A DNA stretch of 46,715 bases. It comes from Candidatus Omnitrophica bacterium CG_4_8_14_3_um_filter_43_15 (lineage in GTDB: Bacteria; Omnitrophota; Gorgyraeia; Taenaricolales; Taenaricolaceae). Made by a program: the position numbers and the translations under genes. The stretch covers positions 1 through 46,715 of the forward strand of contig PFHB01000059.1 of the NCBI GenBank assembly GCA_002783585.1. The letters are read 5' to 3'. Below the pieces are notes generated by a model. That model ran no database searches, was not told the DNA's origin, and was given only the letters and a program-made list of their open reading frames with translations. Of this stretch, positions 8,108 through 28,724 are shown one piece after another. Every line of letters starts with the position of its first letter. Positions within the stretch are counted from its first letter, which is position 1.

Positions 8108-8109
8108 AA

Positions 8110-9618
8110 TTAAATATCAAAGTAGAGATAAAATTCATATGGATGCGGGCGCATTCTCACTGCATCCACTTCTCTTTTTCTCTTATACTCTATCCAGGCA
8201 TCAATAACGTCTTTTGTAAATACGCCGCCTCTTAAAAGATAATCATGATCTTTTTCTAAAGCGTCAATTGCCCTCTTTAAAGACGACGGCACTGTCGGTA
8301 TCTTTGATAACTCCTTCTCGCTCAACTCAAACAGATCCTTATCTGTCGGATCGCCCGGGTCTATTTTGTTTAAGATGCCGTCAAGGCCTGCCATAAGCAT
8401 GGCGCTGAAAGCGATGTAGCCGTTACATGACGGGTCCGGAGGCCTGAACTCTATCCTCTTTGACTTCGGATTGTCCGAATACATCGGAATCCTGACAGCT
8501 GCAGAGCGGTTCCTTGCCGAATACACAAGATTAACCGGCGCTTCATACCCAGGCACCAGGCGCTTGTAAGAGTTTGTCGTAGGCGCGCAGAATGCCATTA
8601 AACTGTTGGCATGCTTTAGGAGCCCCCCTATATAATACTTTGCTGTCTGGCTTAAAAGGGCGTATCCGTTTTTATCGTAAAAAAGGTTTACCCCGTTTTT
8701 CCATAAGCTCTGATGGCAATGCATGCCCGAACCGTTATCCGCAAAAAGCGGCTTAGGCATAAACGTAGCAACCATATTATTCTTTCTTGCCATATTCTTG
8801 ATTATGTACTTGTACATCAACAAGCTGTCTGCCATTTTTGTCATCTTATCGTACTTAATATCTATTTCACACTGGCCTGCCGTGGCGACCTCATGATGAT
8901 GAACCTCTGCGTTTACACCGGCCTCTTTCATCTTAAGTATCATCCTGCTGCGCAAATCCTGCAGAGAATCATGCGGCGGCACAGGAAAATACCCTTCTTT
9001 AAAACGTATCTTGTAACCTAAATTCGGTTTTTCATCCTTGCCTGTATTCCAATCACCTTCCTGTGAATCAATGAAATAATAACTGGAATTTTCCGTCTGA
9101 TCAAACCTTACGTCATTAAATAGAAAAAACTCCGCTTCAGGCCCGAAATAAACGCTGTCAGCTATGCCTGAATCCTTTAAAAACTTCTCTGCTTTTTTGG
9201 AAATATAACGCGGGTCGCGCGTGTATGCCTTTCTTGTCAGCGGGTCGTAAATATCGCAGATAATGCTTAGTGTCGGAACCTCACAAACCGGGTCAAGCAC
9301 TGCTGTTGACGGGTCAGGTATCATAATCATATCCGACTCCTGAATCTTCTGAAAACCCCTGATGGATGAACCGTCAAACCCTATCCCATCCACCCATATC
9401 GAACGCATGATATCAGGCATCTCCAATAATTCTGAAGCAGGTATGGAAAAATGCTGCCACAAACCAGGCAAATCATTAAATTTAAGGTCTACGATCTGTA
9501 TGCCTTTATCCTTTACCATTTTCATTACGTCCCTTGCCGCCTTCTCGTCAAAAGAACCGTTGATGAGAGGATTCTTTGTTTTCACCTCTGCAACCTTTTT
9601 CGACTTTTTACTATTCAT
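8110..9618 (-). CDS. glnA: Glutamine synthetase type I (beta-like), adenylylation Tyr absent
   Basis: Forms glutamine from glutamate, ammonia and ATP. 502 residues with a roughly 30-residue N-terminal extension rich in Lys. Visible family motifs: DGIGFDGSSIRGF near 77, FGPEAEFFLF near 150, HHHEVATAGQCEID near 240, NGSGMHCHQSLW near 296, SYKRLVPGYEAP near 350 and RIEFRPPDPSCNGY near 385. It has the insertion between the first metal residues typical of the beta type, but the loop that carries the adenylylated Tyr in enterobacteria reads DKDLFEL, with Phe in place of Tyr, so control by adenylylation is unlikely. ATG at 9618 has AAAGGAGGATGGAAAA upstream. First gene of glnA-gltB-gltD, behind a long leader with attenuators. 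Confidence 0.97.
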   Translation of the reverse strand: MNSKKSKKVAEVKTKNPLINGSFDEKAARDVMKMVKDKGIQIVDLKFNDLPGLWQHFSIPASELLEMPDIMRSIWVDGIGFDGSSIRGFQKIQESDMIMIPDPSTAVLDPVCEVPTLSIICDIYDPLTRKAYTRDPRYISKKAEKFLKDSGIADSVYFGPEAEFFLFNDVRFDQTENSSYYFIDSQEGDWNTGKDEKPNLGYKIRFKEGYFPVPPHDSLQDLRSRMILKMKEAGVNAEVHHHEVATAGQCEIDIKYDKMTKMADSLLMYKYIIKNMARKNNMVATFMPKPLFADNGSGMHCHQSLWKNGVNLFYDKNGYALLSQTAKYYIGGLLKHANSLMAFCAPTTNSYKRLVPGYEAPVNLVYSARNRSAAVRIPMYSDNPKSKRIEFRPPDPSCNGYIAFSAMLMAGLDGILNKIDPGDPTDKDLFELSEKELSKIPTVPSSLKRAIDALEKDHDYLLRGGVFTKDVIDAWIEYKRKREVDAVRMRPHPYEFYLYFDI

Positions 9619-9652
9619 TTTTCCATCCTCCTTTTCATACCGTTATCCCTCG

Positions 9653-9698
9653 TCCCGAGACGCTGCTACGTAAGACTGTTACGGCGCAGGACTCGGGA
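9653..9698. repeat. Imperfect palindrome in glnA leader
   Basis: Outer arms TCCCGAG / CTCGGGA, then inner complementary pairs CTGC/GCAG and GTAA/TTAC around a short loop. Lies just upstream of the glnA ribosome-binding site. Confidence 0.55.
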
Positions 9699-9730
9699 TT
9701 AATTCACAGACGCCCCGCTAATGCGGAGCT

Positions 9731-9761
9731 ACAACTTACGTCGCTTCGCTCCGTAAGTTGT
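9731..9761. repeat. ACAACTTACG palindrome, half-copy shared with the pyrG leader
   Basis: Arms ACAACTTACG and CGTAAGTTGT with an 11-nt loop. Read on the minus strand it follows TTTAATGAGCA directly after the second glnA terminator; the pyrG leader has the same TTTAATGAGCA followed by one arm (20857-20878), so the two leaders share ancestry downstream of the terminator. A smaller hairpin GCTCCGC-ATTA-GCGGGGC lies next to it. Confidence 0.7.
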
Positions 9762-9770
9762 CTGCTCATT

Positions 9771-9824
9771 AAAAAAACAGCGCCCTCTTAACATCAAAAT
9801 CACCTTTGATGCAATAGGACGCCA
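9771..9824 (-). terminator. Second attenuator terminator in glnA leader
   Basis: RNA arm GGCGUCCU (to 9824) pairs with AGGGCGCU, an inner stem GCAUCAAA/UUUUGAUG extends it, and seven U residues follow (9777-9771). Its 5' arm overlaps the P2-like hairpin at 9817-9830, so the two folds exclude each other. Confidence 0.7.
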
Positions 9825-9859
9825 TTATCCTGAAATTTCCAGCTAAATCTTTTTTGCTG
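9817..9859 (-). promoter_or_regulatory. Second ANTAR-type tandem hairpin in glnA leader
   Basis: In RNA order: P1 at 9859-9840, stem CAGCAAA/UUAGCUG with one A-A mismatch and hexaloop AAAGAU; 9-nt linker; P2 at 9830-9817, stem GGAU/GUCC with hexaloop AAUGGC. Both loops have A at position 1 and G at 4. P1 lies within a dispersed repeat family, so it may be partly coincidental; P2 matches the other leaders closely. Confidence 0.6.
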
Positions 9860-9925
9860 AAATTTCATCCCGAGTCACCCGCTGTGGGGACACACCTTTA
9901 AGGTGTGTCCCCATAAGTGACGAGG
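9830..9925. repeat. About 95-bp dispersed repeat with central GGGGACACACC palindrome
   Basis: Read on the plus strand: AAATTTCC...CTTTTTTGCTGAAATTT, then CCCGAGTCACCCGCT, a palindrome with GGGGACACACC arms (9884-9913), then AGTGACGAGGGA. The same outer modules recur at 21137-21240 and, in part, at 10434-10515; the opposite orientation is seen at about 2012-2080. Confidence 0.7.
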
Positions 9926-9927
9926 GA

Positions 9928-9970
9928 TAAAATAAAAACGTTCGCAATTGCTTCTGTGCATTGCGAACGT
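9928..9970 (-). terminator. First attenuator terminator in glnA leader
   Basis: RNA arms ACGUUCGCAAUGC (9970-9958) and GCAAUUGCGAACGU (9951-9938) with a single bulge and loop ACAGAA, followed by UUUUUAUUUU. A strong intrinsic terminator placed between the promoter and glnA, so it acts only if not prevented. Its 5' arm is shared with hairpin P2. Confidence 0.88.
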
Positions 9971-9997
9971 CATTGTCGCTTTTACTACTTTGTAAAA
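9963..9997 (-). promoter_or_regulatory. ANTAR-type tandem hairpin (P1-P2), first in glnA leader
   Basis: P1 at 9997-9980: stem UUUUAC/GUAAAA with hexaloop AAAGUA. P2 at 9979-9963: stem GCGAC/GUUCGC (one bulge) with hexaloop AAUGAC. Both loops carry A1 and G4, the invariant bases of RNAs bound by ANTAR domains. P2's 3' arm GUUCGC is part of the terminator's 5' arm, which gives a binding-dependent antitermination switch. P1 begins at about the expected transcription start. Confidence 0.82.
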
Positions 9998-10000
9998 TTA

Positions 10001-10028
10001 ATTATATCACAATTTCATGATTTGTCAA
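10001..10028 (-). promoter_or_regulatory. Promoter of glnA-gltB-gltD
   Basis: -35 TTGACA at 10028-10023, 16-bp spacer, -10 TATAAT at 10006-10001 with TGA just before it (extended -10). Matches the housekeeping sigma consensus at every position, as do the pyrG-, DUF1846- and guaA-type promoters here. The -35 is just past the stop of the preceding small gene. Strong constitutive initiation fits control by attenuation downstream. Confidence 0.88.
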
Positions 10029-10041
10029 GCGCAAAATTTTA

Positions 10042-10425
10042 TCAGCGGCGCGCAGCAAGGCCTTCCTGATAACCTGCCTTAAACCCATCTTGATAACCCT
10101 TCTGATATGAGGCATCGCTGGGTGATACCGGCTGCGGCGCATAAACCGGTTGCGGCGCGTATACTGGCTGCTGCTGCGCAGGCGCAGAAGGCTGCCCACT
10201 AGAAAAAACCGTATCAAGAACTGCTCCGCCTATTACGTTTGTACCCGCTCCTATTAATGCGCCTTTGCCTGCTTTTCCTCCCGAAGCGCCGGCTGCAACT
10301 GCGCCCGTTGCCGCGCCAAGCACGCCTTGCTTAAGAATCTTGTTTGATGCCTCATCGCTAAAAGCAGGCACAACCATCATGACCACAACAATACATATCA
10401 CAGCTGTAAAAATAAAATTTTTCAT
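10042..10425 (-). CDS. Exported glycine-zipper protein with YAPQP repeats
   Basis: About 127 residues from the ATG at 10425, which has GGAGGGCAATAAG upstream; an in-frame start further up has no such site. Signal peptide MKNFIFTAVICIVVVMMVVPAFSD, then a Gly/Ala-rich segment (GAATGAVAAGASGGKAGKGA, residues about 35-60) typical of glycine-zipper outer-membrane or lipoprotein-associated proteins, a Pro/Gln stretch with three near-identical VYAPQP units, and a C-terminal YQKGYQDGFKAGYQEG repeat of about 8-residue period. Function unknown; likely envelope. Lies between carB and glnA and may be carried on the carB transcript. Confidence 0.75.
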   Translation of the reverse strand: MKNFIFTAVICIVVVMMVVPAFSDEASNKILKQGVLGAATGAVAAGASGGKAGKGALIGAGTNVIGGAVLDTVFSSGQPSAPAQQQPVYAPQPVYAPQPVSPSDASYQKGYQDGFKAGYQEGLAARR

Positions 10426-10433
10426 CTTATTGC

Positions 10434-10515
10434 CCTCCAAATTTTCCAGTAGAATATTTTGTCCGAAAATTTGTCCCGACTCCCTCACCGCTTATGGGGA
10501 CACACCTTTATGGTA
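10434..10515. repeat. Dispersed repeat copy with half palindrome forming the end of carB
   Basis: Read on the minus strand: AAAGGTGTGTCCCCATAA, then GCGGTGAGGGAGTCGGGAC, AAATTTTC...GGAAAATTTG, ending at the ribosome-binding site of the glycine-zipper gene. It resembles 21137-21240 and 9830-9925. The carB stop codon lies inside the GGTGTGTCCCCA arm. The AAATTTTC/GGAAAATTTG arms could form a hairpin next to the ribosome site. Confidence 0.65.
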
Positions 10516-13500
10516 TTCCTGAAGGGACTTTACCTCAAACTTATTCTTTATAAGCCCCTCAATGCCGTTTACCGTTGCCTCTGCGCCGGAAATAGTGGTA
10601 ACAAGAGGCACATTATACAGGATTGCCGTTGACCTAATAGAAGTCTCATCCTGCTTCGTAGCCTTACTGCTGGGCGTATTTATTATCAAGTTTATATCGC
10701 CTGATTTTATCCTGTCAACAACATTGGGCCTTCCCTCATGCAGTTTAGGCACAATCTCAACATCAAGGCTGTTTTTGTTTAACGCGTTGGCAGTGCCTGT
10801 TGTAGCAAAAATTTTAAACCCAAGGTCTGACAGCTTCTTGGCGACAAATATTATTTTTCTCTTATCCTCGTTTTTGACGCTTATAAAAATATTCCCTTTT
10901 ACCGGCAGTTTCTGGCCTGCGGCTATCTGCGATTTGGCAAACGCCATACCCAGCGTCTTGTCTATGCCCATTACCTCGCCTGTTGATTTCATTTCAGGCC
11001 CCAATACAGGATCAACCCCCGGAAAACGCACAAACGGAAATACTGATTCCTTAACGCACGTATATTTTATATTCACCTCTTTTGTAAACCCGAGTTCCTT
11101 CAACGTAGAACCAAGCATAATCTTTGTCGCAAGTTTTGCCAACGGCACACCTATAGCTTTTGAGACAAAAGGTATTGTCCTGGATGCGCGCGGATTAACC
11201 TCCAGTATATAAACGGTATTATACCTTACCGCGTACTGAATGTTTAAAAGCCCCTTTACCTTTAATTCCAGGGCGATCTTCTTGGTATACTCACGGATTT
11301 TCTGTATTATATCATCTGTCAGTGTGTGCGGCGGAAGAACCATCGCGGAATCGCCTGAATGTATCCCTGCCGCCTCTATATGCTCAAGTATTCCTCCGAT
11401 AACACATGCCTGGCTGTCGCAGATAGCGTCAACATCAACCTCTATTGCGTCCTCGAGAAATTTATCTATCAGGACCGGATGCTCGCCTGAAACTTCAACT
11501 GCGTGTTCCATGTACAATTCAAGTTCCTTTTCATCCTGCACTATTTCCATTGCCCTGCCGCCTAAAACATACGACGGCCTGACCAAAACAGGATACCCTA
11601 TCCTGGAAGCTATAACCCTTGCCTCTTTAAATGACTTTGCGGTATCATTCTCAGGCTGAAGTATTCCGAGTTTTTTCACTATAACCCTGAAACGCTCCCT
11701 GTCTTCAGCTATGTCTATTGAATCAGAAGACGTACCAAGTATTTTAAGGCCTGCCTTCTCAAGCTGTATCGCAATATTTAGCGGAGTCTGCCCGCCAAAC
11801 TGAACAATAGCGCCTATGGGCTTCTCAAGATCCGCGATGTTCATTACGTCTTCAACCGTCAGCGGCTCAAAATAAAGCTTATCCGAGGTATCATAATCCG
11901 TGGATACGGTCTCAGGGTTACAATTAACCATTATACTTTCAACGCCTTCTTCCTTTAAGGCATACGATGCATGGCAGCAGCAATAATCAAATTCTATGCC
12001 CTGGCCTATTCTGTTCGGGCCCCCGCCTAAAATAAGCACCTTTTTCTTATCAGAAGACGGCGCGCTTTCATTCTTTGTCTCGTAAGTGGAATAATAATAA
12101 GGCTTCTCTGCCTTAAACTCGCCTGCGCAGGTGTCAACCAATTTATACGCCGGCTTTATATTTAATTTTTTTCTTGCCTGCCTCACATTCTTCTCCCTTG
12201 AATTTAAAAGCACTGCCAGCTGCACATCGGAAAAACCGTGCGTCTTTGCCCTGACAAACATCTCTTTTGGCATATTTATTTCATCGTCTATATTTTTATT
12301 CCTGTATTTTTTTATCTCATCCTCTGTTTCCACAATCTGCCTCAGGTTGTCAATAAACCACCTGTCTATCTTAGACAACTCGTATATCTCATCCGTAGTC
12401 AATCCTATTTTTATCGCATACCTTAAATAAAAAAACCTGCCGTCATTGGGCTTGCGTATCATATCCTTTATTTCGCCTGTAATCTCCGGCGACGGATTTT
12501 TAAGCATATCGTCTGTTATCTTATCCTTACCGTCAGCGCCTAAGCCAAACCTTTTTGTCTCTATGGACCTGATGCCTTTCTGCAATGCCTCGCGGAAATT
12601 CCTTCCTATTGACATAGCTTCCCCGACCGCCTTCATTGATGTATTCAATATCCTTTTTGTCCCTGGGAATTTTTCAAACGTGAACCTGCATATTTTAAAT
12701 ACACAGTAATCGACTGTGGGCTCAAAAAACGCGGTTGTCTTTCCTGTTACCTGATTTAATACCTCAGGCAAAGTAAGGCCTACCGCAAGCTTTGTTGCAA
12801 CGCGCGCAATAGGAAAGCCTGTTGCCTTTGACGCCAAAGCAGAACTCCTTGAAAGACGCGGATTTACCTCTATAATTACTATTCCACCGTTATCCGGATT
12901 CTGCGCAAACTGTATGTTCGCGCCGCCGCCTGTTATACCTATTTTTCTTATGATTTTTTTAGAAAGATTTACAAAATTAGAGTATTCCTCTTTCGTCAAA
13001 GTCTGAGAAGGCGCCACAACAATACTGTCGCCGGTGTGCACGCCCATAGGGTCAACATTTTCCATGGACGTGATCATAATGACATTGTCCACGCAATCCC
13101 TCATTACCTCAAACTCTATCTCTTTCCACCCAAGGACAGATTGCTCTACCAGAATCTGGGCTACAGGACTTATCTCAAGGCCTTTTGCCAAAAATATCTC
13201 CAACTCTTCCTTATTATACGCGATTGAACCACCGCTTCCGCCAAGCGTATACGCAGGCCTTAATATAAGAGGAAACCCGATCTTAAGCCCAATCTTCATC
13301 CCCTCTTCAACACTGTGGGCAATACCGCTTTTCGGCATGCTTACGCCTATCTCAAGCATCGCCTTTTTAAACAATTCCCTGTCCTCGGCGCGCGAGATGG
13401 CATCAACATCCGCGCCTATTGATTCAATCCCGTATTTTTTCAAAATACCCTGCTTCATAAGAAAAAACGCCAAATTTAATCCTGTCTGGCCGCCCAAAGT

Positions 13501-13764
13501 AGGCAATATAGCGTCGGGCTTTTCCTTTTTTATTATTTCTATAACAGTTTCTATATTAAGCGGCTCTATATACGTAACATCGGCCATATTAGGATCTGTC
13601 ATTATAGTAGCCGGGTTTGAATTGACGAGTATTGTAAAATAACCCTCTTCTCTTAACGCCTTACACGCCTGAGAACCGGAATAATCAAATTCACATGCCT
13701 GGCCTATAACTATAGGGCCGGAACCTATCATTAAAATCCTTTTTATGTCTTTACGCTTTGGCAT
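10492..13764 (-). CDS. carB: Carbamoyl-phosphate synthase large subunit, full length
   Basis: 1090 residues, the full four-part layout: N-terminal ATP-grasp half (carboxyphosphate synthesis; [17 protein letters not shown] near 12, [22 protein letters not shown] near 300), oligomerisation region ending [20 protein letters not shown] near 560, C-terminal ATP-grasp half (carbamoyl phosphate synthesis; [21 protein letters not shown] near 585, [16 protein letters not shown] near 860), and a C-terminal MGS-like allosteric domain from about 950. Overlaps the degenerate CarA by 14 nt, third gene after DUF1846. Because its partner lacks a working glutaminase it may run on ammonia. Its last residues KGVSP and stop are encoded by half of a palindromic repeat. 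Confidence 0.96.
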
Positions 13765-14854
13765 GTTGCACCCCTTTTGTAGCCTTGTTTGATTTTGTCA
13801 TGTTAAGAAATCTTTCAAACGCCTCGTTTACCTCATTAAATCCTGGGCTCGCAGGGCAATATTGCGCTGATAAAAACTTCAGGGGCTTGCTTTCCATTTC
13901 CTCTATTGAATCGTCATTTATATTCCGCAACGTTATATTTACGTCTTTTCTATTCTTTATGCCTGCCTCATCCAGAACGTATGAATGATTCTGGGCAGTG
14001 ATATCGCCCTTAAATGAATCAAGTGCTTTTATAGGATAATTCACGCCGTGATGCCCAATCTTCATCTTCTTCAGTTTACCGCCGAGAGCAAGCCCCAAAA
14101 CATGATGCCCTGTTGAAATACCCATAATAGGCATCTTTCCTAAAAGATTTTTTACATTTTCCGCGATATCCGGGATAGCCGGATCATTTTCAGGCCCGCT
14201 TGATACAATTAGGCCGTTTAAATTCAACGCCATTATCTTGGCGCTTGGCGTATCATAAGGCAATAATATCACATTGCAGCCAAGAGTATTTAGCTGCCTG
14301 ATAAAACTCCTCGGCATGCCCAAATCCACAACACCGATATTGTATTTCAAAACGCCTGCCTTAAATTCTACCGGTTTTTTTACTGATGTATCTTTTATAA
14401 AACCTTCTTTTTTATGATTCTTTATTTTTTTAAGCAGCGATTCTTTATTAAAATCCTTAGTTGATATTATGCCTGGCTGCTCGCCTTTATCTCTTATTTC
14501 AACCGAGAGCGTCCTTGTGTCAATGCCGCTTATCGCAACAGCGTTTTCTTTTTTCAAAAATTCACCAAAAGGCCCTTCTGCCTGCCAATTAGAATACATC
14601 CTTGACATCTCTTTTATAACCAATCCGGCAGCCTGACATTTGCTTGATTCACTGAATTTTTTCGCTACGCCGTAATTTCCTATCAAAGGATATGTCAAAA
14701 CAATTATCTTTCCGGCATTGGCTGCATCTGTAACCATCTCCTGATAACCAACGACAGCCGTATTGATAATGACGTCTCCAACCCTCTCGCCGGCAGCGCC
14801 GCAGGCGGTGCCTTCATATACACTTCCGTTTTCAAGCACCAGTATCGCTTTCAT
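13751..14854 (-). CDS. CarA-like subunit with lost glutaminase triad
   Basis: 367 residues from the ATG at 14854 (GGGAGAG upstream; homologues start MKAILVLE-). Keeps the N-terminal CarA fold ([28 protein letters not shown], about 37-63) and class I amidotransferase domain. But the nucleophile loop reads GISTGHH (Ser247 for Cys), and the His-x-Glu segment reads QYCPASP where active CarA has QFHPEASP, so His is Cys (about 333) and Glu is missing. Ammonia-dependent animal CPS I also has GISTG. The frame is intact and flanking motifs such as GHHGVNYP and QNHSY remain, so it looks maintained, perhaps as a structural or allosteric partner of CarB. It overlaps carB by 14 nt. An active paralogue lies at 18113-19222. 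Confidence 0.9.
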
Positions 14855-14864
14855 AGCTCTCCCT

Positions 14865-16388
14865 CTACGTAACAAACAAATTATTTGAAGAAAACTTACC
14901 GTCTGTTGTCACATTTACGCCCAGCATCTTTAATCCTACCTCATCGCCCGGGGTAGATATATGAGTTATGTGCATCTGGCAACCGCGCAACTCCGCCAAT
15001 TTCTTCATCGCTATCTCGGCTGTGTGATTCGTAGTCGCGCTTATTGAAAGGGCTATCAGGGCCTCCTCCAAATCCAGACTCTCCGGCTCCAAACCCAAAA
15101 TGCTTTCCTTTAATACTGATATCTGCCTTATTATCTGCGGCGATAAAAGCAATATTTCATCCGGTATCTTTGCCAACACTTTAACCGCATTTATCACAAG
15201 GCTTGACGCCGCATGCATCAACTTCGAATTCTTGCCTGTTACAATCTTCCCATTTTTTAACTCAAGCGCCGCGCCGCAATAAATACCGGCGAAGCCCTTG
15301 CCTTTCTTTTCGGCATCTTCTGACGCTTTTCTGGCAACATTGACTACGGGCCTGTCAGTAACGTCCACACCCAACTCTTTCATCAAATCCATTGCGCGCT
15401 GAACCGTCTCTTTCTTTTCTATACCAAGAAGGTATTCGGCATTATACCTGAAATACCTCCTTATCAACTCCTGCTTGGCTGCCTCTTGAACTATTTTGTC
15501 GTTTACTATGCCAAAACCGGCCCGGTTTACACCCATATCAGTAGGTGAATTATACACGGGCATGGTTTTTTTACCGTCACATATTTTAGCAAGTATTGAT
15601 TTTAATATCGGAAAGCTTTCGACGTCGCGATTATAATTAATCACTTTCTTTTTATATTTTTTAAAATGATGCGGATCAACCAGGTTAAAATCCTGTATGT
15701 CCGCGGTTGCCGCCTCATAGGCGACATTAACAGGATGTTTCAACGGAATATTCCAGATAGGAAACGTCTCAAATTTCGCATAACCGGCGTTTATCCCCTT
15801 TTTATGCTCCTGGTACAATTGCGATAAACATGTGGCGAGCTTGCCGCTGTTAGGCCCTGGCCCGGTTATTATCACAATGGGTTTTTTGGTTTTTATATAA
15901 TCGTTCTTTCCAAAACCCTTATCGCTTGCGACTAAATCTATATTTGTGGGATAATTTTTTATAGGATAATGCAGGTATACCTTTACGCCCCTGCGCTCTA
16001 ATTTGTTCTTGAATGTAACTGCCGCTGATTGATTCGTAAACCTGGTAATAACAACCGATGATATATCAAGCCCCCATTTCCTCAGGTCGTCAATCAATTT
16101 AAATGTGGCAGCGTCATATGTTATTCCGAAATCGCCCCTGACCCTGCCTTTTTCAATATCTCCGGAATAGATACATAAAACTATCTCTATTTTATCTTTT
16201 AATTTTTGAAGTAGCCTTATTTTTACGTTGGGGTCATATCCCGGAAGGACACGCGCGGCATGATAATCAAAACAGAGCTTTCCGCCGAATTCAAGATAAA
16301 GCTTGTTGCCGAATTCGGCAACCCTGCCTAATATCGCGGCGGTTTGTTCTTTTAGATATTTCTCGTTATCGAAGCCATTTTTTTTCAT
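14865..16388 (-). CDS. DUF1846 family protein
   Basis: 507 residues, the usual size for this family, whose biochemical role I do not know. Matches family hallmarks from the start (NGFDNEKYLKEQTAAILGRV) and includes GGKLCFDYHAARVLPGYDPN near 35, IITGPGPNSGKLATCLSQLY near 175 (P-loop-like but not a standard Walker A), TDMGVNRAGFGI near 285, and HTAEIAMKKLAELRGCQMH near the end. First gene of DUF1846-carA(degenerate)-carB, 10 nt before the next start. That placement under an ANTAR-type leader suggests a job tied to ammonia or carbamoyl phosphate, but this is inference. No Shine-Dalgarno is visible: the bases before ATG are CCAATACCCTCCA. Confidence 0.85.
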   Translation of the reverse strand: MKKNGFDNEKYLKEQTAAILGRVAEFGNKLYLEFGGKLCFDYHAARVLPGYDPNVKIRLLQKLKDKIEIVLCIYSGDIEKGRVRGDFGITYDAATFKLIDDLRKWGLDISSVVITRFTNQSAAVTFKNKLERRGVKVYLHYPIKNYPTNIDLVASDKGFGKNDYIKTKKPIVIITGPGPNSGKLATCLSQLYQEHKKGINAGYAKFETFPIWNIPLKHPVNVAYEAATADIQDFNLVDPHHFKKYKKKVINYNRDVESFPILKSILAKICDGKKTMPVYNSPTDMGVNRAGFGIVNDKIVQEAAKQELIRRYFRYNAEYLLGIEKKETVQRAMDLMKELGVDVTDRPVVNVARKASEDAEKKGKGFAGIYCGAALELKNGKIVTGKNSKLMHAASSLVINAVKVLAKIPDEILLLSPQIIRQISVLKESILGLEPESLDLEEALIALSISATTNHTAEIAMKKLAELRGCQMHITHISTPGDEVGLKMLGVNVTTDGKFSSNNLFVT

Positions 16389-16405
16389 TGGAGGGTATTG
16401 GTTTT

Positions 16406-16453
16406 AGAAAAACGGCGCTTTTAGTGCTGACAATCCAACACTCAAACGCCGTT
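16406..16453 (-). terminator. Attenuator terminator before DUF1846
   Basis: RNA arms AACGGCG... and ...CGCCGUU with an extended imperfect inner stem (GAGUG/CACU) and loop near UUGGAUUGUC, followed by UUUUUCU. It lies between the promoter and the first gene; its 5' arm is shared with the P2 hairpin. Confidence 0.82.
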
Positions 16454-16459
16454 GTTTAA
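16442..16459 (-). promoter_or_regulatory. ANTAR-type P2 hairpin, DUF1846 leader (no P1 found)
   Basis: Stem UUAAAC/GUUUGA with hexaloop AACGGC (A1, G4). The predicted start is about 16456, so this hairpin is at the extreme 5' end and there is no room for P1. Single-hairpin recognition or a different start site are both possible. Confidence 0.65.
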
Positions 16460-16462
16460 CAC

Positions 16463-16490
16463 ATTATACCACTATCTGGAAAACTGTCAA
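16463..16490 (-). promoter_or_regulatory. Promoter of DUF1846-carA(degenerate)-carB
   Basis: -35 TTGACA at 16490-16485, 16-bp spacer, -10 TATAAT at 16468-16463 with TGG before it. The -35 begins 8 nt after the stop codon of the upstream half-length carB. Confidence 0.88.
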
Positions 16491-16497
16491 TACAAAA

Positions 16498-18129
16498 TTA
16501 TCTATCGTATGTGGAGTAATAATACGGGGTAAAGGCGCGAAACTCCGCAGCGCAAGTATCAACCAGCTTGAAATTGGGGGCGATATTCATGGATTTGCGC
16601 AGGTTATAGGCCTCTTCTTCGGATTTGCCCAAAAGCCCACCCAGTTGCTTATCGCTGAAACCATATTCCTTTGCTTTTGTCAAAAGCTCTTTGGTAATAC
16701 TACTTTTATTCTTTATTATCTCTTTCTCAGTATCTATTATCTCCTTAATATTATATAAAAACCACGGGTCTATTGAAGTCATTTTGTTTATTTCTTCAAG
16801 GCTCATCCCAAACCTTATTGCATCGGCTATAAAAAATATGCGCTCGGCATTCGGCGTTCTTAATTTTTCGTAAATAAGCTCTATATCCTTTATCCTGAGG
16901 GACTCAAGCCCTGATTTTTTTATCTCAAGCGAACGCAGGCCTTTTTGCAGCGCCTCTTTAAAAGTCCTGCCTATGGACATCGCCTCGCCTACCGATTTCA
17001 TTGATACAGTTAAAGTTGAATTTGACGCCTTAAATTTCTCGAATGTAAAGCGCGGTATTTTGACCACGCAGTAATCTATCGACGGCTCAAAACACGCGGG
17101 CGTTTCTTTTGTTATATCGTTTGAGATTTCATCCAGTGTGTATCCGACGGCAAGCTTTGCCGCGATCTTTGCTATAGGAAAACCCGTTGCCTTTGACGCC
17201 AACGCAGAACTCCTTGAAACCCTTGGGTTCATTTCAATAACAACCATGCGGCCGTTTTTCGGGTCAACCGCAAACTGTATATTAGACCCCCCTGTCTCAA
17301 CGCCTATTTCGCGTATACACGCAATGGCCGCATCTCGCATCTTTTGGTATTGCCTGTCAGTCAATGTCTGTATAGGCGCGACTGTAATAGAGTCGCCTGT
17401 ATGGATACCCATTGGATCAAAATTTTCTATTGAGCAGATAATTACAACGTTATCCTTTTTGTCGCGCATCACCTCAAGCTCAAATTCTTTCCAGCCTGCA
17501 ACCGATTCCTCTATAAGGATCTCGCTTATCATGCTGGACTCCAAGCCGCGTTTGGCAAGCTCTTTAAATTCTTCCATATTATATGCAATGCTGCCGCCTG
17601 CGCCGCCTAAAGTAAAACTCGGGCGTATAATAACCGGAAAACCTATCTTCTGAACAACATCTGCTGCCTCTTTCTGATTATACGCCTTGTCGCTTTTTGG
17701 CAAATCAAGGCCTATCTTCTCCATAGCCAGTTTGAATAAACACCTGTCCTCGCCTTTTTTTATAGCGGCGATGTTGGCGCCTATTACCTCCACCTTGTAT
17801 TTCTTAAGTATACCTTTTTTATCCAGGTCAACTGCCGCGTTTAACGCAGTCTGGCCACCCAGTGTGGCAAGCAAGGCGCATGGCCTTTCTCTTTCAATAA
17901 TCTTCTCTATGACCTCTGTTGTTATTGGCTCTATATAAGTCCTGTCAGCAATATCAGGGTCTGTCATTATAGTAGCAGGGTTTGAATTGACAAGCACAAC
18001 CTTAAAGCCCTCCTGGCGCAGGATCTTACACGCCTGGGAACCTGAATAATCAAATTCGCATGCCTGGCCTATTACTATCGGGCCGGAACCGATTATTAAA
18101 ATCTTTTTGATATCAGTTCTTTTTGGCAC
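16498..18129 (-). CDS. Carbamoyl-phosphate synthase large subunit, N-terminal half only
   Basis: 543 residues that align with residues 1-560 of the full CarB nearby. The carboxyphosphate ATP-grasp domain is intact ([17 protein letters not shown] near 12, [22 protein letters not shown] near 300), with the helical oligomerisation region after it. It stops at [21 protein letters not shown], just where the two halves of CarB join. No C-terminal-half coding remains downstream: the next 100 bp is the DUF1846 promoter and leader. Overlaps carA by 17 nt. Split CarB is known in some archaea and deep-branching bacteria, and isolated halves can work as homodimers. Here the matching C-half is not beside it. 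It may be a dedicated half enzyme, a partner of the full CarB, or decaying. Confidence 0.93.
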
Positions 18130-19221
18130 GGTGTTTCTCCATCATCTCCACAAATCTTTTAAACAAATATTGCGCGTCATGCGGGCCAGGCGAGGCCTCC
18201 GGATGAAACTGCACGGAAAATATAGGCAGTTTTTTATGCCGTAAACCCTCAAGCGTCTTATCATTTAAATTTATATGCGTTATCTCTATATCTTTTTTAT
18301 CAAGCGAATCCATGTCCACACAAAATCCGTGGTTTTGCACCGATATAAAGGCCTTTCCTGTTTTTAAATCTTTTACCGGTTGATTGCCGCCATGATGCCC
18401 AAATTTAAGCTTATATGTCTTCCCGCCAAAAGCAAGGCCAAGCATCTGCTGGCCAAGGCATATGCCGAATACCGGAAGCTTACCTATCAGCCGGCTGGTT
18501 GTCTCTATAACATACGAAACCGCGGATGGGTCGCCAGGGCCGTTTGAAAACAAAACCCCGTCCGGTTTTATTTTTAAAATATCATTTGCAGTTGTCGTTG
18601 CCGGGACAACCATAACCTGACAACCTACTCTTTGCAAATTGCGCAATATATTAAATTTAACCCCGCAGTCAACCACCACCACCCTTTTACCAAAGACCGT
18701 ACCCGGGGCGGCCTTGGTTTTCCATTCATACGGCTTTTTACAGGTAACCTCTTTAACCAGGTCAATGCCTACCAGCCCCTTTGAATTCTTCGCTTTTTTA
18801 ACAAGGGCCTTTTCATCTAAATCAATTGTTGACAGAACCGCTTTCATCGCGCCTACAAGCCTTATATGCAAGGTCAGCTGCCGAGTATCAATACCTTCTA
18901 TGCCGAGTATGTTATTTTCCTTAAGATAATCGCCCAGAGACTGCTGCGAATGCCAATTACTTGCGATCTTGCTGTATTCCTTAACAACAAATCCCTCGAC
19001 AAAAGGCTTATGCGATTCTACGTCCTCTTTATTTACCCCATAGTTTCCTATCAAAGGATAAGTCATTGTAACTATTTGGCCTTTATAAGATGGGTCGGTT
19101 AGTATCTCCTGATAACCAGTCATACTGGTATTAAACACAACCTCCCCGTATCTTTCGCCGCCTGCTCCAAAAGACCTGCCTCTGAATATTTTTCCGTCTT
19201 CTAACGCTAATATCGCATTCA

Positions 19222-19222
<1 letters not shown>
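18113..19222 (-). CDS. carA: Carbamoyl-phosphate synthase small subunit (active-type)
   Basis: Glutaminase subunit that feeds ammonia to CarB. 369 residues. N-terminal CarA domain ([20 protein letters not shown] near 31), then class I amidotransferase with nucleophile Cys255 in GICLGQQM and His340/Glu342 in [13 protein letters not shown], so the triad is complete, in contrast to the paralogue at 13751-14854. Its ATG overlaps the pyrG stop (TAATG) and its 3' end overlaps the half-length carB. Middle gene of pyrG-carA-carB(N). It supplies glutamine nitrogen for pyrimidines and arginine. Confidence 0.95.
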
Positions 19223-20874
<1,652 letters not shown>

Positions 20875-20879
20875 TCATT

Positions 20880-20922
20880 AAAAATGGCGTTTAGGGCCGG
20901 CAATTCAGCCTCTAAACGCCAT
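20880..20922 (-). terminator. Attenuator terminator before pyrG
   Basis: RNA arms AUGGCGUUUAG and CUAAACGCCAU, 11 bp, around a GGCUGAAUUGCC-type inner hairpin, then UUUUU. The 5' arm overlaps P2. After the U-run the sequence AAUGAGCACGCAACUUACGGA is also found (with two differences) after the second glnA terminator. Confidence 0.88.
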
Positions 20923-20953
20923 TGTTTTGATCTAGCAGTTCTTCTTTGGACTA
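20911..20953 (-). promoter_or_regulatory. ANTAR-type tandem hairpin (P1-P2), pyrG leader
   Basis: P1 at 20953-20936: stem UAGUCC/GAACUG with one C-A mismatch and hexaloop AAAGAA. P2 at 20930-20911: stem UCAAAAC/GUUUAGA with one mismatch and hexaloop AAUGGC. Both loops have A1 and G4; linker 5 nt. P1 starts at the predicted transcription start. P2's 3' arm GUUUAGA is part of the terminator 5' arm. Confidence 0.82.
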
Positions 20954-20959
20954 TCTATT

Positions 20960-20987
20960 AGTATACCACGATTTCAAAATATGTCAA
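20960..20987 (-). promoter_or_regulatory. Promoter of pyrG-carA-carB(N)
   Basis: -35 TTGACA at 20987-20982, 16-bp spacer, -10 TATACT at 20965-20960 with TGG before it. The -35 overlaps the stop codon of the 48-residue Cys-rich gene. Confidence 0.86.
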
Positions 20988-21130
20988 CTTTTTCTCTTGC
21001 AAGCCTTTTTGGCAGAAAAATGCTTTTTCTGCTCAAAATTAAATTCTTCGCAGTATACAACAGGGTATCTTTTTGTAAAGGTGCAATCTTTGTCTTTCAC
21101 ACAAGTAACGCATAATCCTTTACCGCTCAT
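20984..21130 (-). CDS. 48-residue Cys-rich protein (CxxC...C...CEEF type)
   Basis: Starts at the ATG at 21130, with GGAGGTGGTT directly upstream; a longer in-frame reading enters the repeat and is not favoured. Sequence begins MSGKGLCVTCVKDKDCTF and has four cysteines in the order CVTC, DC, YCEEF, then a Lys-rich tail. This looks like a small zinc or Fe-S knuckle. I recall similar small proteins with a CxxC...CEEF pattern in anaerobes but know no function. Third gene after GAF-ANTAR and the FMN glutamate-synthase-like protein, separated from the latter by a 110-bp repeat. Confidence 0.75.
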   Translation of the reverse strand: MSGKGLCVTCVKDKDCTFTKRYPVVYCEEFNFEQKKHFSAKKACKRKS

Positions 21131-21136
21131 AACCAC

Positions 21137-21240
21137 CTCCGAATTTTCCGGTAGAATCTTTTTGGCTGTCCCGTTCACGGGATGCCGTGTTCGGCAAAAT
21201 TCGTCCCGAGTCACCCGCTATCTCGAGCAGTGACGAGGGA
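21137..21240. repeat. Dispersed repeat copy between FMN-GltS-like and Cys-rich genes
   Basis: Carries GTCCCTCGTCACT / AGCGGGTGACTCGGGAC flanks around a short CTCGAG centre, then AATTTTGCCG ... CGGAAAATTCGG arms with two small hairpins (GCCG-AACA-CGGC and TCCCG-TGAA-CGGGA) inside. Shares modules with 9830-9925 and 10434-10515. The final GGAGG serves as the ribosome-binding site of the small gene. Confidence 0.65.
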
Positions 21241-21241
21241 C

Positions 21242-22825
21242 TTAAAGAACCGCTTCGGCCTCTTTTCTGTAGGCATCCATTACATAAGCGATACCTGACA
21301 CCTTTGCCGCATCTTCTGTCAGGCTCATCAGGTCTTTTCTTGAAATGGTGTTTACCCTAAAATTTCTGGAGCCTGCCATCAATTGCTGCAAACCAACTCT
21401 TATTCTCTGGCTGAATGTATAAACCCCGACAGCGCCCAAAGGAATATCTTTCATGTCCTTGCCGTATTTATCCGCAAGCTCTTCATAAGAAACGAATATC
21501 TCTTTGGCGGTCTTGCCGAATTCGGATACGGTAGACGGCAATGTATTGGTTTTAATCCATTCCTCTATATTCTTACCGACAAAACCGGGTATCATTAACG
21601 CCCTTCCCATGCAAACCGCTTTTACATAAGGCGCGCCCATTGCTATGGCCTTAAAAACGTGATCCTCCAGGGAAAATCCGCCTGCCATCGCAATATCAGG
21701 AATTCTCATTTTCTTTTTTGCCAATTTCTCACAAAATTCATACATAAGCGCTTCCAGATAAAATGTCGGTATGCCCCATTCCTGCATCATGCGCCACGGG
21801 CTCATCCCTGTGCCACCGGGCGCGCCGTCAATTGTCAATAAATCTATATTCGCCATTGACGAAAATTTAATCGCCTGCGCAAGCTCAACCATTGAATAAG
21901 CGCCTGTCTTTAAGGTTATTCTCTTAAACCCGAGGTCTCTTAAGCGCTTTATCTCTTTCATAAAGCTTTCCTCGGAGACAAAACCAAGCCGCGAATGCCT
22001 TTCAAATTCCTTTATCGCCTTGTCTTTAAACGCTTCCTGTGTTGCATGAACTGTCGGGTCAGGCGTAACAATATAGCCGCGCTTTTTAAGCTCCTGCGCC
22101 CTTTCAATACTTTTTACTTTTATCTCACCGCCTATACACTTTGCGCCCTGGCCCCATTTCAACTCTATAGTTTCCAAACTGTGTTTTTTTCTTACATACT
22201 CCGCGACGCCAAGCCTGGTATCTTCGACGTTCATCTGAACAAGTATTTCGCCGAAACCATTATGAAACTTTTTATACACCTCAATACGCCTGTCCATGTC
22301 AGGCGCCTTGGTAATTTTGCCTTTGAAATCCAGCTCAAGTTTCGGGTCAATACCGCAAACATTTTCCCCGCACACAAGTGTAATGCCTGATATCGCGGCG
22401 CCTATAGCAAAAGATTCCCAATGTTTACGCGCGATTTCCGTCGATCCTAAGGCGCCGGTAAAAATCGGTACCTGCATCTTTACCTTTTTATCCCAGCCGT
22501 ATTCTATCTGGGTATCCACATCGGGAAATGTAGCTGTGTCAGGATTGCCCTCTATACCTTTTTCCAGGCCTTTTGCGCCCTGGGCATAGCCCTGTATATT
22601 AAGATGAGAATAATCTATCGGATAATTTTTATCGCCGCCGGCTGTCATCTCTCCAAACGGCCCCGGATATATAACCTCTCTGCCTCTAAATGAAGATTTG
22701 AAAATCTCGCAATTGCCCCTGCATGACTCAAGACACTTTGAACACAAACCTGAACATGGTACTACGTTTTTCGAACGATTAAAAGTCCCTGTAGCGTCGT
22801 TGCTATTAGGCTTTAACAGATTCAT
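21242..22825 (-). CDS. FMN-binding glutamate-synthase-domain protein with N-terminal Cys cluster
   Basis: 527 residues. The body is the FMN/2-oxoglutarate-binding synthase domain of GltB (LTIDGAPGGTGMSPWRMM near 330, AGGFSLEDHVFKAIAMGA near 380), but there is no glutaminase domain and no GXGXG domain, so any glutamate or other amination would need ammonia from elsewhere. Residues 24-42 hold five cysteines (CSGLCSKCLESCRGNC), likely an Fe-S site in place of the usual one. Second gene after the GAF-ANTAR regulator, 18 nt downstream. The context points to nitrogen assimilation, but the true reaction is not known to me. Confidence 0.88.
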   Translation of the reverse strand: MNLLKPNSNDATGTFNRSKNVVPCSGLCSKCLESCRGNCEIFKSSFRGREVIYPGPFGEMTAGGDKNYPIDYSHLNIQGYAQGAKGLEKGIEGNPDTATFPDVDTQIEYGWDKKVKMQVPIFTGALGSTEIARKHWESFAIGAAISGITLVCGENVCGIDPKLELDFKGKITKAPDMDRRIEVYKKFHNGFGEILVQMNVEDTRLGVAEYVRKKHSLETIELKWGQGAKCIGGEIKVKSIERAQELKKRGYIVTPDPTVHATQEAFKDKAIKEFERHSRLGFVSEESFMKEIKRLRDLGFKRITLKTGAYSMVELAQAIKFSSMANIDLLTIDGAPGGTGMSPWRMMQEWGIPTFYLEALMYEFCEKLAKKKMRIPDIAMAGGFSLEDHVFKAIAMGAPYVKAVCMGRALMIPGFVGKNIEEWIKTNTLPSTVSEFGKTAKEIFVSYEELADKYGKDMKDIPLGAVGVYTFSQRIRVGLQQLMAGSRNFRVNTISRKDLMSLTEDAAKVSGIAYVMDAYRKEAEAVL

Positions 22826-22843
22826 AACCCCATCCTTTCTTTA

Positions 22844-23545
22844 TTATTGTTTCTTAAATTCGTGGGCCAGAATAATAGCTTCTGCGACTTCGCGCATGCT
22901 CTTTCGCATGTCCATACTGTATTTCTGAAGCTTCAGGTAAGCCTGGTCCTCTGCCATACCTTCCTCTTTCATTAAAATACCTTTTGCGCGCTCTACTTTT
23001 TTACGCGCCTCGAGTTCCTCTCTTATTATTTTTGTCTTTACCAACAACTCTGTGTTCTCTATGGCAACAGCCGCCTGGCTAGCTATTGAAGTGAGGATGT
23101 TGATTTCCGTATCGCTAAAATTGTGGGCCTTGTTTGTATAGCAGTTTATTGCGCCTATAACCTTGTTTTTTACCACCAGCGGAACACATAAAAGCGATTT
23201 GAGGCCTTCTTTTTTCGCTATATCTTTATGCTTATACTCGGCTTCCTTTGTTACGTCTTTTACCACAATAGGCCTATTTTGCTCAATAGCTTTTCCCGCA
23301 ATGCCTTCGCCTATCTTAAGAGGCTTTTTCTTGTTATACTCTTCACTAATGCTTTGTGTAGCCCTAATAACCAGCTCCTGTTTTGCTTCATCTACAAGTA
23401 TTAGAGAACATATATTAGAACCCATTACCTCTGCCGTAACGCTGACTATAAGACGCAAAATATCCTCAAGATATAAATCTGAGGCTATTGCCTTGCTTAT
23501 TTTAGACAGCGCTTTTATATTTTCTTGAAAATTTATATTTTCCAT
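22844..23545 (-). CDS. GAF-ANTAR RNA-binding antiterminator
   Basis: 233 residues. GAF sensor domain about 8-165 (DLYLEDILRLIVSVTAEVMG, GEGIAGKAIEQNRPIVVKDV, VPLVVKNKVIGAINCYT). C-terminal ANTAR domain about 173-228 with the three-helix signature RKKVERAKGILMKEEGMAED, AYLKLQKYSMDMRKSMREVA. ANTAR domains bind tandem hairpins with A1/G4 hexaloops and block terminators. No receiver domain, so the trigger is probably a ligand or redox signal at GAF. It leads its own operon behind the same kind of leader, which implies autoregulation. The ATG abuts the terminator U-run with no Shine-Dalgarno; no upstream in-frame start exists because a TAA lies in the terminator arm. Confidence 0.95.
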   Translation of the reverse strand: MENINFQENIKALSKISKAIASDLYLEDILRLIVSVTAEVMGSNICSLILVDEAKQELVIRATQSISEEYNKKKPLKIGEGIAGKAIEQNRPIVVKDVTKEAEYKHKDIAKKEGLKSLLCVPLVVKNKVIGAINCYTNKAHNFSDTEINILTSIASQAAVAIENTELLVKTKIIREELEARKKVERAKGILMKEEGMAEDQAYLKLQKYSMDMRKSMREVAEAIILAHEFKKQ

Positions 23546-23588
23546 AAAAAATAAGGCGTTTTACGTCAGTTGTACGACATAAAACGCC
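23546..23588 (-). terminator. Attenuator terminator before the GAF-ANTAR gene
   Basis: RNA arms GGCGUUUUAUGUC and GACGUAAAACGCC (13 pairs, one G-U), short loop, then UUAUUUUUU running directly into the AUG. The 5' arm contains the P2 3' arm. Confidence 0.9.
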
Positions 23589-23621
23589 ATTGTCCCTTTT
23601 TTAAGCGCTTACATTGCGCTC
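23581..23621 (-). promoter_or_regulatory. ANTAR-type tandem hairpin (P1-P2), regulator's own leader
   Basis: P1 at 23621-23603: stem GAGCGC/GCGCUU with loop AAUGUAA (seven bases, A1 and G4 kept). P2 at 23596-23581: stem GGGAC/GUUUU (G-U pairs) with hexaloop AAUGGC. Linker 6 nt. P2 is weak compared with the 13-bp terminator, so default termination would dominate without protein. Confidence 0.78.
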
Positions 23622-23639
23622 TATTCTATTATTGTTTTA

Positions 23640-23668
23640 ATTTTATCACAAAATACGATACTTGTCAA
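23640..23668 (-). promoter_or_regulatory. Promoter of the GAF-ANTAR operon
   Basis: -35 TTGACA at 23668-23663, 17-bp spacer, -10 TAAAAT at 23645-23640 with TGA before it. Lies within 20 nt of the gdhA stop codon, with no terminator visible between. Confidence 0.85.
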
Positions 23669-23687: not shown

Positions 23688-25025
23688 TTAAACCAGGCCC
23701 TGGTCAATCATCGCATCAGCGACTTTTACAAATCCGGCAATGTTAGCGCCTTTTACATAATTGATGTATTTGCCTTCCTTGCCGTATTTGACACACTGTT
23801 CGTGTATCGCTATCATTATGTCGTGCAGTCTTCTGTCAACTTCTTCCCTTGTCCATGACAGCCTCATACTGTTCTGCGACATCTCCAAGCCGCTTGTCGC
23901 GACACCGCCTGCGTTGGCTGCCTTTCCAGGAGCATAAAGAATCTTTGCGTCCTGAAAAACCTTTATACCTTCAGGAGTTGTAGGCATATTGGCGCCTTCA
24001 CCTATTGCCATACAGCCGTTTTTGACCAGAGCCTTTGCGTCAGCCTCGCTTATTTCATTCTGTGTAGCTGAAGGAAACGCTATATCGCATTTTATCCTCC
24101 ATGGCCGCTCGCCTTCAAAATACTTGCAGCCAAATTCCTTTGCGCAATCCTTAATCCTTGCCCTTTTCACGTTCTTGAGGTGTAAAACGCAATCAAGCTC
24201 TTTTTTGTCTATGCCACCTTCGTCATGAATAAAACCGTTTGAATCAGAAAGTGTTACAACCTTCGCCCCTAATTCAATAAGTTTCTCCACTGTATATTGC
24301 GCGACGTTTCCTGAACCTGAAACAGCGCATATTTTACCTTTAAAAGATTCTCCTCTTGTCTTCAACATTTCCTGCACAAAATAAACACAGCCATAACCTG
24401 TTGCTCCAGGCCTTATCAAACTTCCGCCCCAATTTAAAGCTTTTCCTGTTAACACTCCTGTAAATTCATTGCGCAACCTTTTGTACTGACCGAACATATA
24501 CCCTATTTCGCGGCCGTCTGTTCCGATATCGCCTGCAGGCACATCGGTATCAGGGCCTATATACCTCTGTAATTCTGTCATAAAACTCTGGCAGAATTTC
24601 ATTACCTCATTATCTGATTTTCCCTTCGGGTCAAAATCAGAACCACCCTTGGCCCCACCCATAGGAAGAGTTGTTAAACTATTTTTAAAAACCTGCTCGA
24701 ATGCCAAAAACTTAAGGACTCCGAGATTTACGCTGGGATGAAGACGAATGCCGCCTTTGTACGGGCCTATGGCGCTGTTCATCTGTATGCGAAAGCCCCT
24801 GTTTACCTGGATCTCGCCTTTATCATCCAGCCACGACACGCGAAACATAATTACGCGCTCAGGCTCAATCATTCTTTCCAACACCTTATGTTGCTGGTAT
24901 TTCGGATTTTTGTCAATAAACGGCATTACCGACTCAACCACCTCTCTTACTGCCTGGTGAAACTCTTTTTCGCCCGGATTCTTTTCAATCACCCTTGCCA
25001 TAAAGGCTTCAATTTTGCTGCTCAT
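23688..25025 (-). CDS. gdhA: Glutamate dehydrogenase (probably NADP-dependent, hexameric)
   Basis: Reversibly aminates 2-oxoglutarate with ammonia. About 445 residues. Substrate-domain motifs GPYKGGIRLHPSVN near 90, LPMGGAKGGSDFDPKGKS near 120 with the catalytic Lys, and GPDTDVPAGDIGTDGREIGYMFG near 155; nucleotide-binding domain with VSGSGNVAQYTVEKL near 235; C-terminal NAGGVATSGLEMSQNS near 370. Length and motifs are those of the small hexameric family. The ATG at 25025 (AGGCGGAAAA upstream) seems better than the one at 25040. Last gene of the run glnA(alpha)-nfnA-nfnB-gdhA, where NfnAB could supply NADPH for it. Confidence 0.96.
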   Translation of the reverse strand: MSSKIEAFMARVIEKNPGEKEFHQAVREVVESVMPFIDKNPKYQQHKVLERMIEPERVIMFRVSWLDDKGEIQVNRGFRIQMNSAIGPYKGGIRLHPSVNLGVLKFLAFEQVFKNSLTTLPMGGAKGGSDFDPKGKSDNEVMKFCQSFMTELQRYIGPDTDVPAGDIGTDGREIGYMFGQYKRLRNEFTGVLTGKALNWGGSLIRPGATGYGCVYFVQEMLKTRGESFKGKICAVSGSGNVAQYTVEKLIELGAKVVTLSDSNGFIHDEGGIDKKELDCVLHLKNVKRARIKDCAKEFGCKYFEGERPWRIKCDIAFPSATQNEISEADAKALVKNGCMAIGEGANMPTTPEGIKVFQDAKILYAPGKAANAGGVATSGLEMSQNSMRLSWTREEVDRRLHDIMIAIHEQCVKYGKEGKYINYVKGANIAGFVKVADAMIDQGLV

Positions 25026-25063
25026 TTTTCCGCCTGACATACATTGTCAAATTTAGCCCGCTC

Positions 25064-28702: not shown

Positions 28703-28724
28703 GGACTTCTCCTTATTATATATA

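Follow-up and report, generated by a model that had tools for sequence, protein, structure and literature searches.

The closest described counterpart of the system reported here is EutV of Enterococcus faecalis, a REC-ANTAR protein that acts on the dual-hexaloop RNA of the eut leaders (PMC3369931, PMC8934654). Ramesh (2012, PMC3369931) predicted ANTAR nitrogen regulons in Desulfotomaculum and Pelobacter, in which several nitrogen operons (glutamate synthase, PII, ammonium transporter, glutamine synthetase) stand under ANTAR RNAs, and reported such RNAs at arginine genes as well. NasR, which acts on the nasF leader (NIT-ANTAR; PMC7496416), is a one-component ANTAR antiterminator for nitrogen assimilation. 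Here we describe four leaders and one gene for a predicted GAF-ANTAR antiterminator in a stretch of 46,715 nucleotides (nt) from Candidatus Omnitrophica bacterium CG_4_8_14_3_um_filter_43_15. This stretch (hereafter, the window) corresponds to contig C68 in an assembly of 1.28 Mb and 94% completeness. We consider it highly probable that the leaders are ANTAR-target transcription attenuators switched by this single protein.

The leaders resemble those of eut in their small hairpins with A1/G4 loops, which stand in tandem in three of the four, in the A-U and C-G closing pairs, and in the overlap of the downstream hairpin (P2) with the terminator; the G4 pocket of the protein is also the same. 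They differ in that a GAF domain replaces the phospho-receiver, the loop of the upstream hairpin (P1) often has seven bases, some leaders have P2 only, the targets belong to nitrogen assimilation and nucleotide synthesis, and three RNA-contact residues are changed. Compared with the Desulfotomaculum and Pelobacter regulons, the present one belongs to Omnitrophota, has only one GAF-ANTAR gene, extends to pyrG, carAB and purF, and counts this ANTAR gene among its own predicted targets. The NIT domain of NasR senses nitrate, whereas here we find a GAF domain like that of PtsP (EI-Ntr) and predict a multi-operon regulon. PtsP has the closest GAF domain; its output is a phosphotransferase, whereas the output here would be RNA binding.

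The leaders precede glnA (L1), DUF1846-carAB (L2), pyrG (L3) and the ANTAR gene (L4), and their parts are listed in Table 1. An earlier sequence-only reading of this DNA had proposed four promoters, and all of them lie exactly where it placed them, on the minus strand. The P2 loops AAUGAC, AACGGC, AAUGGC and AAUGGC are present as it claimed, and so are the P1 loops AAAGUA, AAAGAA and AAUGUAA in three leaders, except that the last (L4) has seven bases rather than six. A1 and G4 are indeed kept in all seven hairpin loops. Tandem hairpins (at least 3 base pairs each, with a short linker) are present in L1, L3 and L4, the linkers being 1, 8 and 7 nt; L2 has P2 only, which begins so near to the presumed start of transcription (a few bases) that P1 would not fit in. 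Folding bore out the proposed sharing of the P2 3' arm with the terminator: in all four leaders an intrinsic terminator takes its 5' arm from the loop and 3' arm of P2. The terminator fold is 9–17 kcal/mol more stable than the fold in which P2 is enforced; thus, P2 would need help to persist.

It could be argued that these are ordinary terminators or unregulated attenuators whose A..G loops arose by chance, because the motifs are short and the seeds were hand-picked. A strict-terminator scanner returned one leader only, missing bulged stems and long loops, and a looser scanner with a loop-swap control was used instead. Applied to the window and to 20 stretches surrounding ANTAR orthologues, it found 18 hairpin-terminator structures with A..G loops, and eleven other loop types still yielded 1–10 (mean about 5.5). 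However, there are just four copies of the P2 core ACAANGRCGTT in the window, all of them at the leaders, against 0.16 expected (mean of 100 shuffles; maximum 2), and the four further copies in the genome all lie within reading frames of 290–939 codons.

The distribution of the element was then estimated with two covariance models. R1 was built from ten leaders, including L1, aligned with equal-length N linkers (alignment A2), which replaced a full-leader MAFFT alignment (A1) that had misaligned the stems. R2 holds no window sequence; its 31 leaders all come from other genomes. Both were applied to a class-level set of 99 genomes, our own included, 72 of which carry PF03861 in one copy each. 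At E ≤ 0.05, R1 matched in 31 of 71 relatives with ANTAR and in none of the 27 without it (Fisher's test, p = 5 × 10−6); with the training genomes removed the counts were 26/64 and 0/27 (p = 2 × 10−5), and both p-values overstate independence because the genomes are related. ANTAR presence and absence alternate within families (e.g., f3, f8 and f32). R2 at the same threshold gave no match in genomes lacking ANTAR. The search in relatives that the sequence-only reading had suggested was therefore positive.

We also examined 80 loci around ANTAR genes, from another collection that partly overlaps the same genomes. All 29 R1 matches in them were on the coding strand (p = 2 × 10−9). Twelve matches in ten loci sit 100–380 nt upstream of ANTAR genes, and control of the ANTAR gene itself thus appears to be conserved in a close group. 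The co-occurrence with ANTAR, the strand preference, the motif counts and the functional coherence of the target genes, described below, make chance loops a very improbable explanation. A gene preceded by two successive ANTAR attenuators was seen at L152:5687-5921 and L156:5136-5304 (both upstream of ANTAR), L177:4045-4154, L228:1453-1560 and L091:141-307.

R2 reported only L3 and L4 in our own genome (E = 0.0024 and 0.0026). L1 was recovered by R1, which had been trained on it, so the case for L1 rests on R1, the count of the 11-base core and the anatomy. A further, weak match in the genome, on contig C39 (E = 0.49), was set aside for want of a recognisable leader context. Rfam gave no match at gathering score in the window and, for the leaders, no relevant one up to E = 1. 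T-box, riboswitch and PyrR-type attenuation were dropped because no such family matched and they do not explain the co-occurrence with ANTAR.

Stem covariation, on which the sequence-only reading had staked its switch, is present in homologous leaders. Among the 31 non-training leaders, P1 is paired in 95.5% of cells and four of its five pairs have changed on both sides. The two stems together show 39 double-change cells versus 16 in shuffles, and all slid registers are far lower; this test leans towards the structure, because the alignment is fitted to a model. P2 is more constrained than P1, as expected from the double use of its 3' arm, which also belongs to the terminator. Its closing pairs A-U and C-G are found in 31/31 leaders; swapping these pairs in P1 of eutP abolished EutV induction (PMC3369931). 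Of 34 other leaders examined for their loops, 20 have a seven-base and 14 a six-base P1 loop; the P2 loop always has six bases, and the linker spans 0–14 nt. G4 is invariant, and A1 is kept in 33/34 P1 loops and 32/34 P2 loops. At 40 of 45 non-training sites a terminator overlaps P2, a feature that lies outside the model.

The GAF-ANTAR gene is the only ANTAR gene of the genome (sole PF03861 match), and its ANTAR domain scores 69.8 bits against a Pfam cut-off of 27.3. A single-sequence search in genome contigs gave nothing; an alignment query succeeded, and the closest named relatives by this protein are metagenome-assembled genomes of Candidatus Omnitrophota. The AlphaFold model (confidence score pLDDT 87) consists of GAF, a 50-residue helix and an ANTAR bundle (helices 145–195, 199–213 and 217–232), and the ANTAR part aligns with EutV (6wsh) without gaps. 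Seven of eleven EutV RNA-contact residues are identical (R142, K143, K149, E160, Y164, M172, R175; numbering of PMC8934654) and K147R is conservative. The residues that form the G4 pocket of EutV (R142, K149, E160, Y164, M172, R175; PMC8934654) are all kept. In 21 orthologues the positions of R142, K143, K149, M172 and R175 are invariant, and that of Y164 is Y or F. Our literature search found no experimentally characterised member of the GAF-ANTAR architecture.

The genes behind the element in relatives are mostly of one kind. There are 37 non-training sites at E ≤ 0.05, and at 27 of them the gene that follows takes part in nitrogen assimilation or uses glutamine: glnA (8), gdhA (5), pyrG (3), PII (3, one inferred from a contig end), carA/carB (2), a glutamate-synthase-domain gene (2), and one each of amtB, purF, a guanosine monophosphate synthase C-domain gene and a dihydroorotate-dehydrogenase-B-like gene. 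Weaker or training sites add carB (G014, G074), amtB (G077) and type III glutamine synthetase (G057; G080 by the scanner only). Orthologues of the glutamate-synthase flavin-mononucleotide (FMN)-domain gene have their own ANTAR leader in G090, G061, L177 and L228, the last two being records labelled Aerophobetes and Deltaproteobacteria. A P2-terminator leader of this type precedes 7 of 11 pyrG orthologues with at least 73% identity in genomes with ANTAR, our own included; the leaders of G057 and G080 are irregular. The one close pyrG orthologue from a genome without ANTAR (G081) has no such leader. Even in genomes with ANTAR, the element is missing before distant pyrG genes (60–70% identity) and before most gdhA genes, so it is not universal on these genes.

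Other genes were also seen behind these leaders. A small conserved open reading frame (about 170–190 amino acids (aa), with weak matches to sigma-70 region 2 and a LuxR-type helix-turn-helix) lies 3' of ANTAR elements (L086:4623-5135, L088:2838-3416, L084:4842-5390, L096:5805-6314, L080:1652-2170, L094:2001-2510, L087) and directly after the ANTAR gene in G077, G045 and G092; it is possibly a second regulator in the circuit. Porin-like secreted proteins stand under the same leaders in several relatives (L096:4893-5654, L089:2799-3614, L101:2539-3279, L043 near 7196), with no Pfam match in the three that were scanned.

The sequence-only reading had put glnA-gltBD, pyrG-carAB, DUF1846-carAB and the ANTAR gene under the GAF-ANTAR protein. 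The co-occurrence, the covariation, the nitrogen and glutamine targets and the element before ANTAR in close relatives support this assignment; the lack of P1 before DUF1846-carAB counts against that member. Binding by the protein and antitermination are proposed by analogy with EutV. By default, each leader would fold into its intrinsic terminator. GAF-ANTAR in an active, presumably dimeric, state would bind the A1/G4 loops of P1 and P2; with P2 held folded the terminator would lose its 5' arm, and the polymerase would read through into glnA-gltBD, pyrG-carAB, probably DUF1846-carAB, and ANTAR with its glutamate-synthase-like partner. The last would form a feedback loop, that is, we infer positive autoregulation of the ANTAR gene.

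Several observations weigh against this mechanism. No R1 match at E ≤ 0.05 was found in 40 of the 71 relatives with ANTAR. The conservation of A1 and G4 is partly circular, because the seed scanner required them. The 1-nt linker of L1 is below the 5–12 nt of eut leaders, three EutV contact residues differ (R168Q, N173D and R177S), and L2 is without P1. In the EutV system both hairpins are needed in vivo, P1 being essential (PMC3369931). L2 may accordingly be no ANTAR target, and a constitutive partial terminator or decayed relic there comes not far short of an even chance in our judgement: its P2 lies where the transcript presumably begins, and as a tandem it scores poorly (13.2 bits, E = 5). 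It is the weakest of the four leaders. However, the P2 of L2 matches the consensus perfectly, as just three other sites in the window do, the pyrG leader of G084 has the same P2-only layout, and carA and carB bear full tandem elements in G018, G014, G095 and G074.

For the attenuators as ANTAR switches, the signal has next to be considered. The GAF domain is nearest to that of PtsP by sequence (3trc, 4.6 × 10−16) and by fold (template-modelling score 0.88 on the target), and the GAF domain of PtsP binds glutamine (PMC4848567). On this similarity and the target list, we give roughly equal weight to both sides of the proposal that the GAF domain senses nitrogen or glutamine status directly and that low glutamine brings about read-through. 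The same switch may instead be active under nitrogen sufficiency, or obey a nucleotide or redox cue through GAF, an alternative that we take seriously while leaning away from it. Among the targets are genes whose products consume glutamine (carAB, pyrG, purF) and which might stay uninduced during starvation, and cyclic-nucleotide-binding and redox-sensing GAF domains also match well; however, PtsP is the nearest match, and amtB and PII, classic starvation genes, bear the element in relatives. PII (PF00543), sigma-54 (PF04552) and the ammonium transporter AmtB (PF00909) were not found in our own assembly, of which about 6% is missing; thus, the GAF-ANTAR protein may be a main nitrogen regulator.

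The genes of interest are all on the minus strand. Their order is guaA, gltD, gltB and glnA; a second carB-carA with DUF1846; a half-length carB, carA and pyrG; the glutamate-synthase FMN-domain gene, presumably co-transcribed with ANTAR; GAF-ANTAR; and gdhA, a gltA-like gene, a dihydroorotate-dehydrogenase-B-like gene and a second glnA. These last genes adjoin ANTAR upstream (27371-28771 and 23688-26506) without an element here; gdhA and glnA bear one in relatives. The half-length carB of the pyrG-carA operon ends just before the L2 promoter, and the full-length carB lies 3' of the second carA. Between the L1 terminator and glnA there are two near-perfect palindromes (9734-9759 and 9885-9913; ACTTACGTCGCTTCGCTCCGTAAGTT; TGGGGACACACCTT/AAGGTGTGTCCCCA), which are similar to dispersed repeats of the repetitive extragenic palindromic type; like sequence occurs near 20858.

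Table 1. Positions of leader parts and genes in the window.
Feature	Position	Strand	Remarks
glnA-gltB-gltD block	2242-9618	minus	glnA 8110-9618, gltB 3611-8107, gltD 2242-3624
L1 terminator	9930-9970	minus	Intrinsic, with U-tract; overlaps P2
L1 P2	9964-9979	minus	Hexaloop AAUGAC
L1 P1	9981-9996	minus	UUUAC-AAAGUA-GUAAA
L1 promoter	10001-10028	minus	TTGACA-16/17-TATAAT-type boxes
Second carA and carB block	10492-14875	minus	carA 13751-14875, full-length carB 10492-13764
DUF1846 gene	14865-16388	minus	
L2 terminator	16405-16453	minus	Intrinsic, with U-tract; overlaps P2
L2 P2	16442-16459	minus	UUAAAC-AACGGC-GUUUGA; at presumed transcript 5' end; no P1
L2 promoter	16463-16490	minus	TTGACA-16/17-TATAAT-type boxes
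carB, N-terminal half only	16498-18129	minus	543 aa
carA	18113-19222	minus	
pyrG	19222-20844	minus	Cytidine triphosphate (CTP) synthase
L3 terminator	20880-20922	minus	Intrinsic, with U-tract; overlaps P2
L3 P2	20913-20928	minus	AAAAC-AAUGGC-GUUUA
L3 P1	20937-20952	minus	AGUCC-AAAGAA-GAACU; one mismatch
L3 promoter	20960-20987	minus	TTGACA-16/17-TATAAT-type boxes
Glutamate-synthase FMN-domain gene	21242-22825	minus	PF01645 1.5e-17; 18 nt downstream of ANTAR
GAF-ANTAR antiterminator (predicted)	22844-23545	minus	233 aa; Pfam GAF_2 3e-27, ANTAR 1.6e-19
L4 terminator	23546-23588	minus	Intrinsic, with U-tract; overlaps P2
L4 P2	23581-23596	minus	GGGAC-AAUGGC-GUUUU
L4 P1	23604-23620	minus	AGCGC-AAUGUAA-GCGCU; heptaloop, same type in relatives
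L4 promoter	23640-23668	minus	TTGACA-17-TAAAAT

The union of glutamate synthase with pyrimidine and carbamoyl-phosphate genes under one ANTAR switch had been thought undescribed. The novelty is narrower, because glutamate synthase, glutamine synthetase, PII and amtB have already been reported under ANTAR control (PMC3369931). Our literature search found no report of pyrG, carAB or purF under ANTAR; carbamoyl-phosphate or CTP-synthase targets may be present in the supplementary tables of Ramesh (2012), which were outside its scope. What is new is the phylum, the one-copy GAF-ANTAR gene, the glutamine-consuming nucleotide-synthesis targets, the heptaloop P1 and the P2-only leaders.

The same search found no described nitrogen regulation for Omnitrophota, and the leaders would offer a concrete and testable nitrogen-control system for this phylum. 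They would also extend ANTAR control to glutamine-consuming nucleotide synthesis, through a GAF-ANTAR protein with a plausible ligand, and the many new leaders of heptaloop and P2-only forms bear on why two hairpins are needed. A wider idea, which we hold to be doubtful at present, is that in small-genome Omnitrophota a single RNA-binding protein has taken over the control of nitrogen, sensing glutamine directly via a PtsP-like GAF domain. Using a variant RNA (a seven-base P1 loop or P2 alone), this protein might set glutamine supply (glnA, gltBD, gdhA) and demand (the amidotransferases CarAB, PyrG and PurF) together by antitermination.

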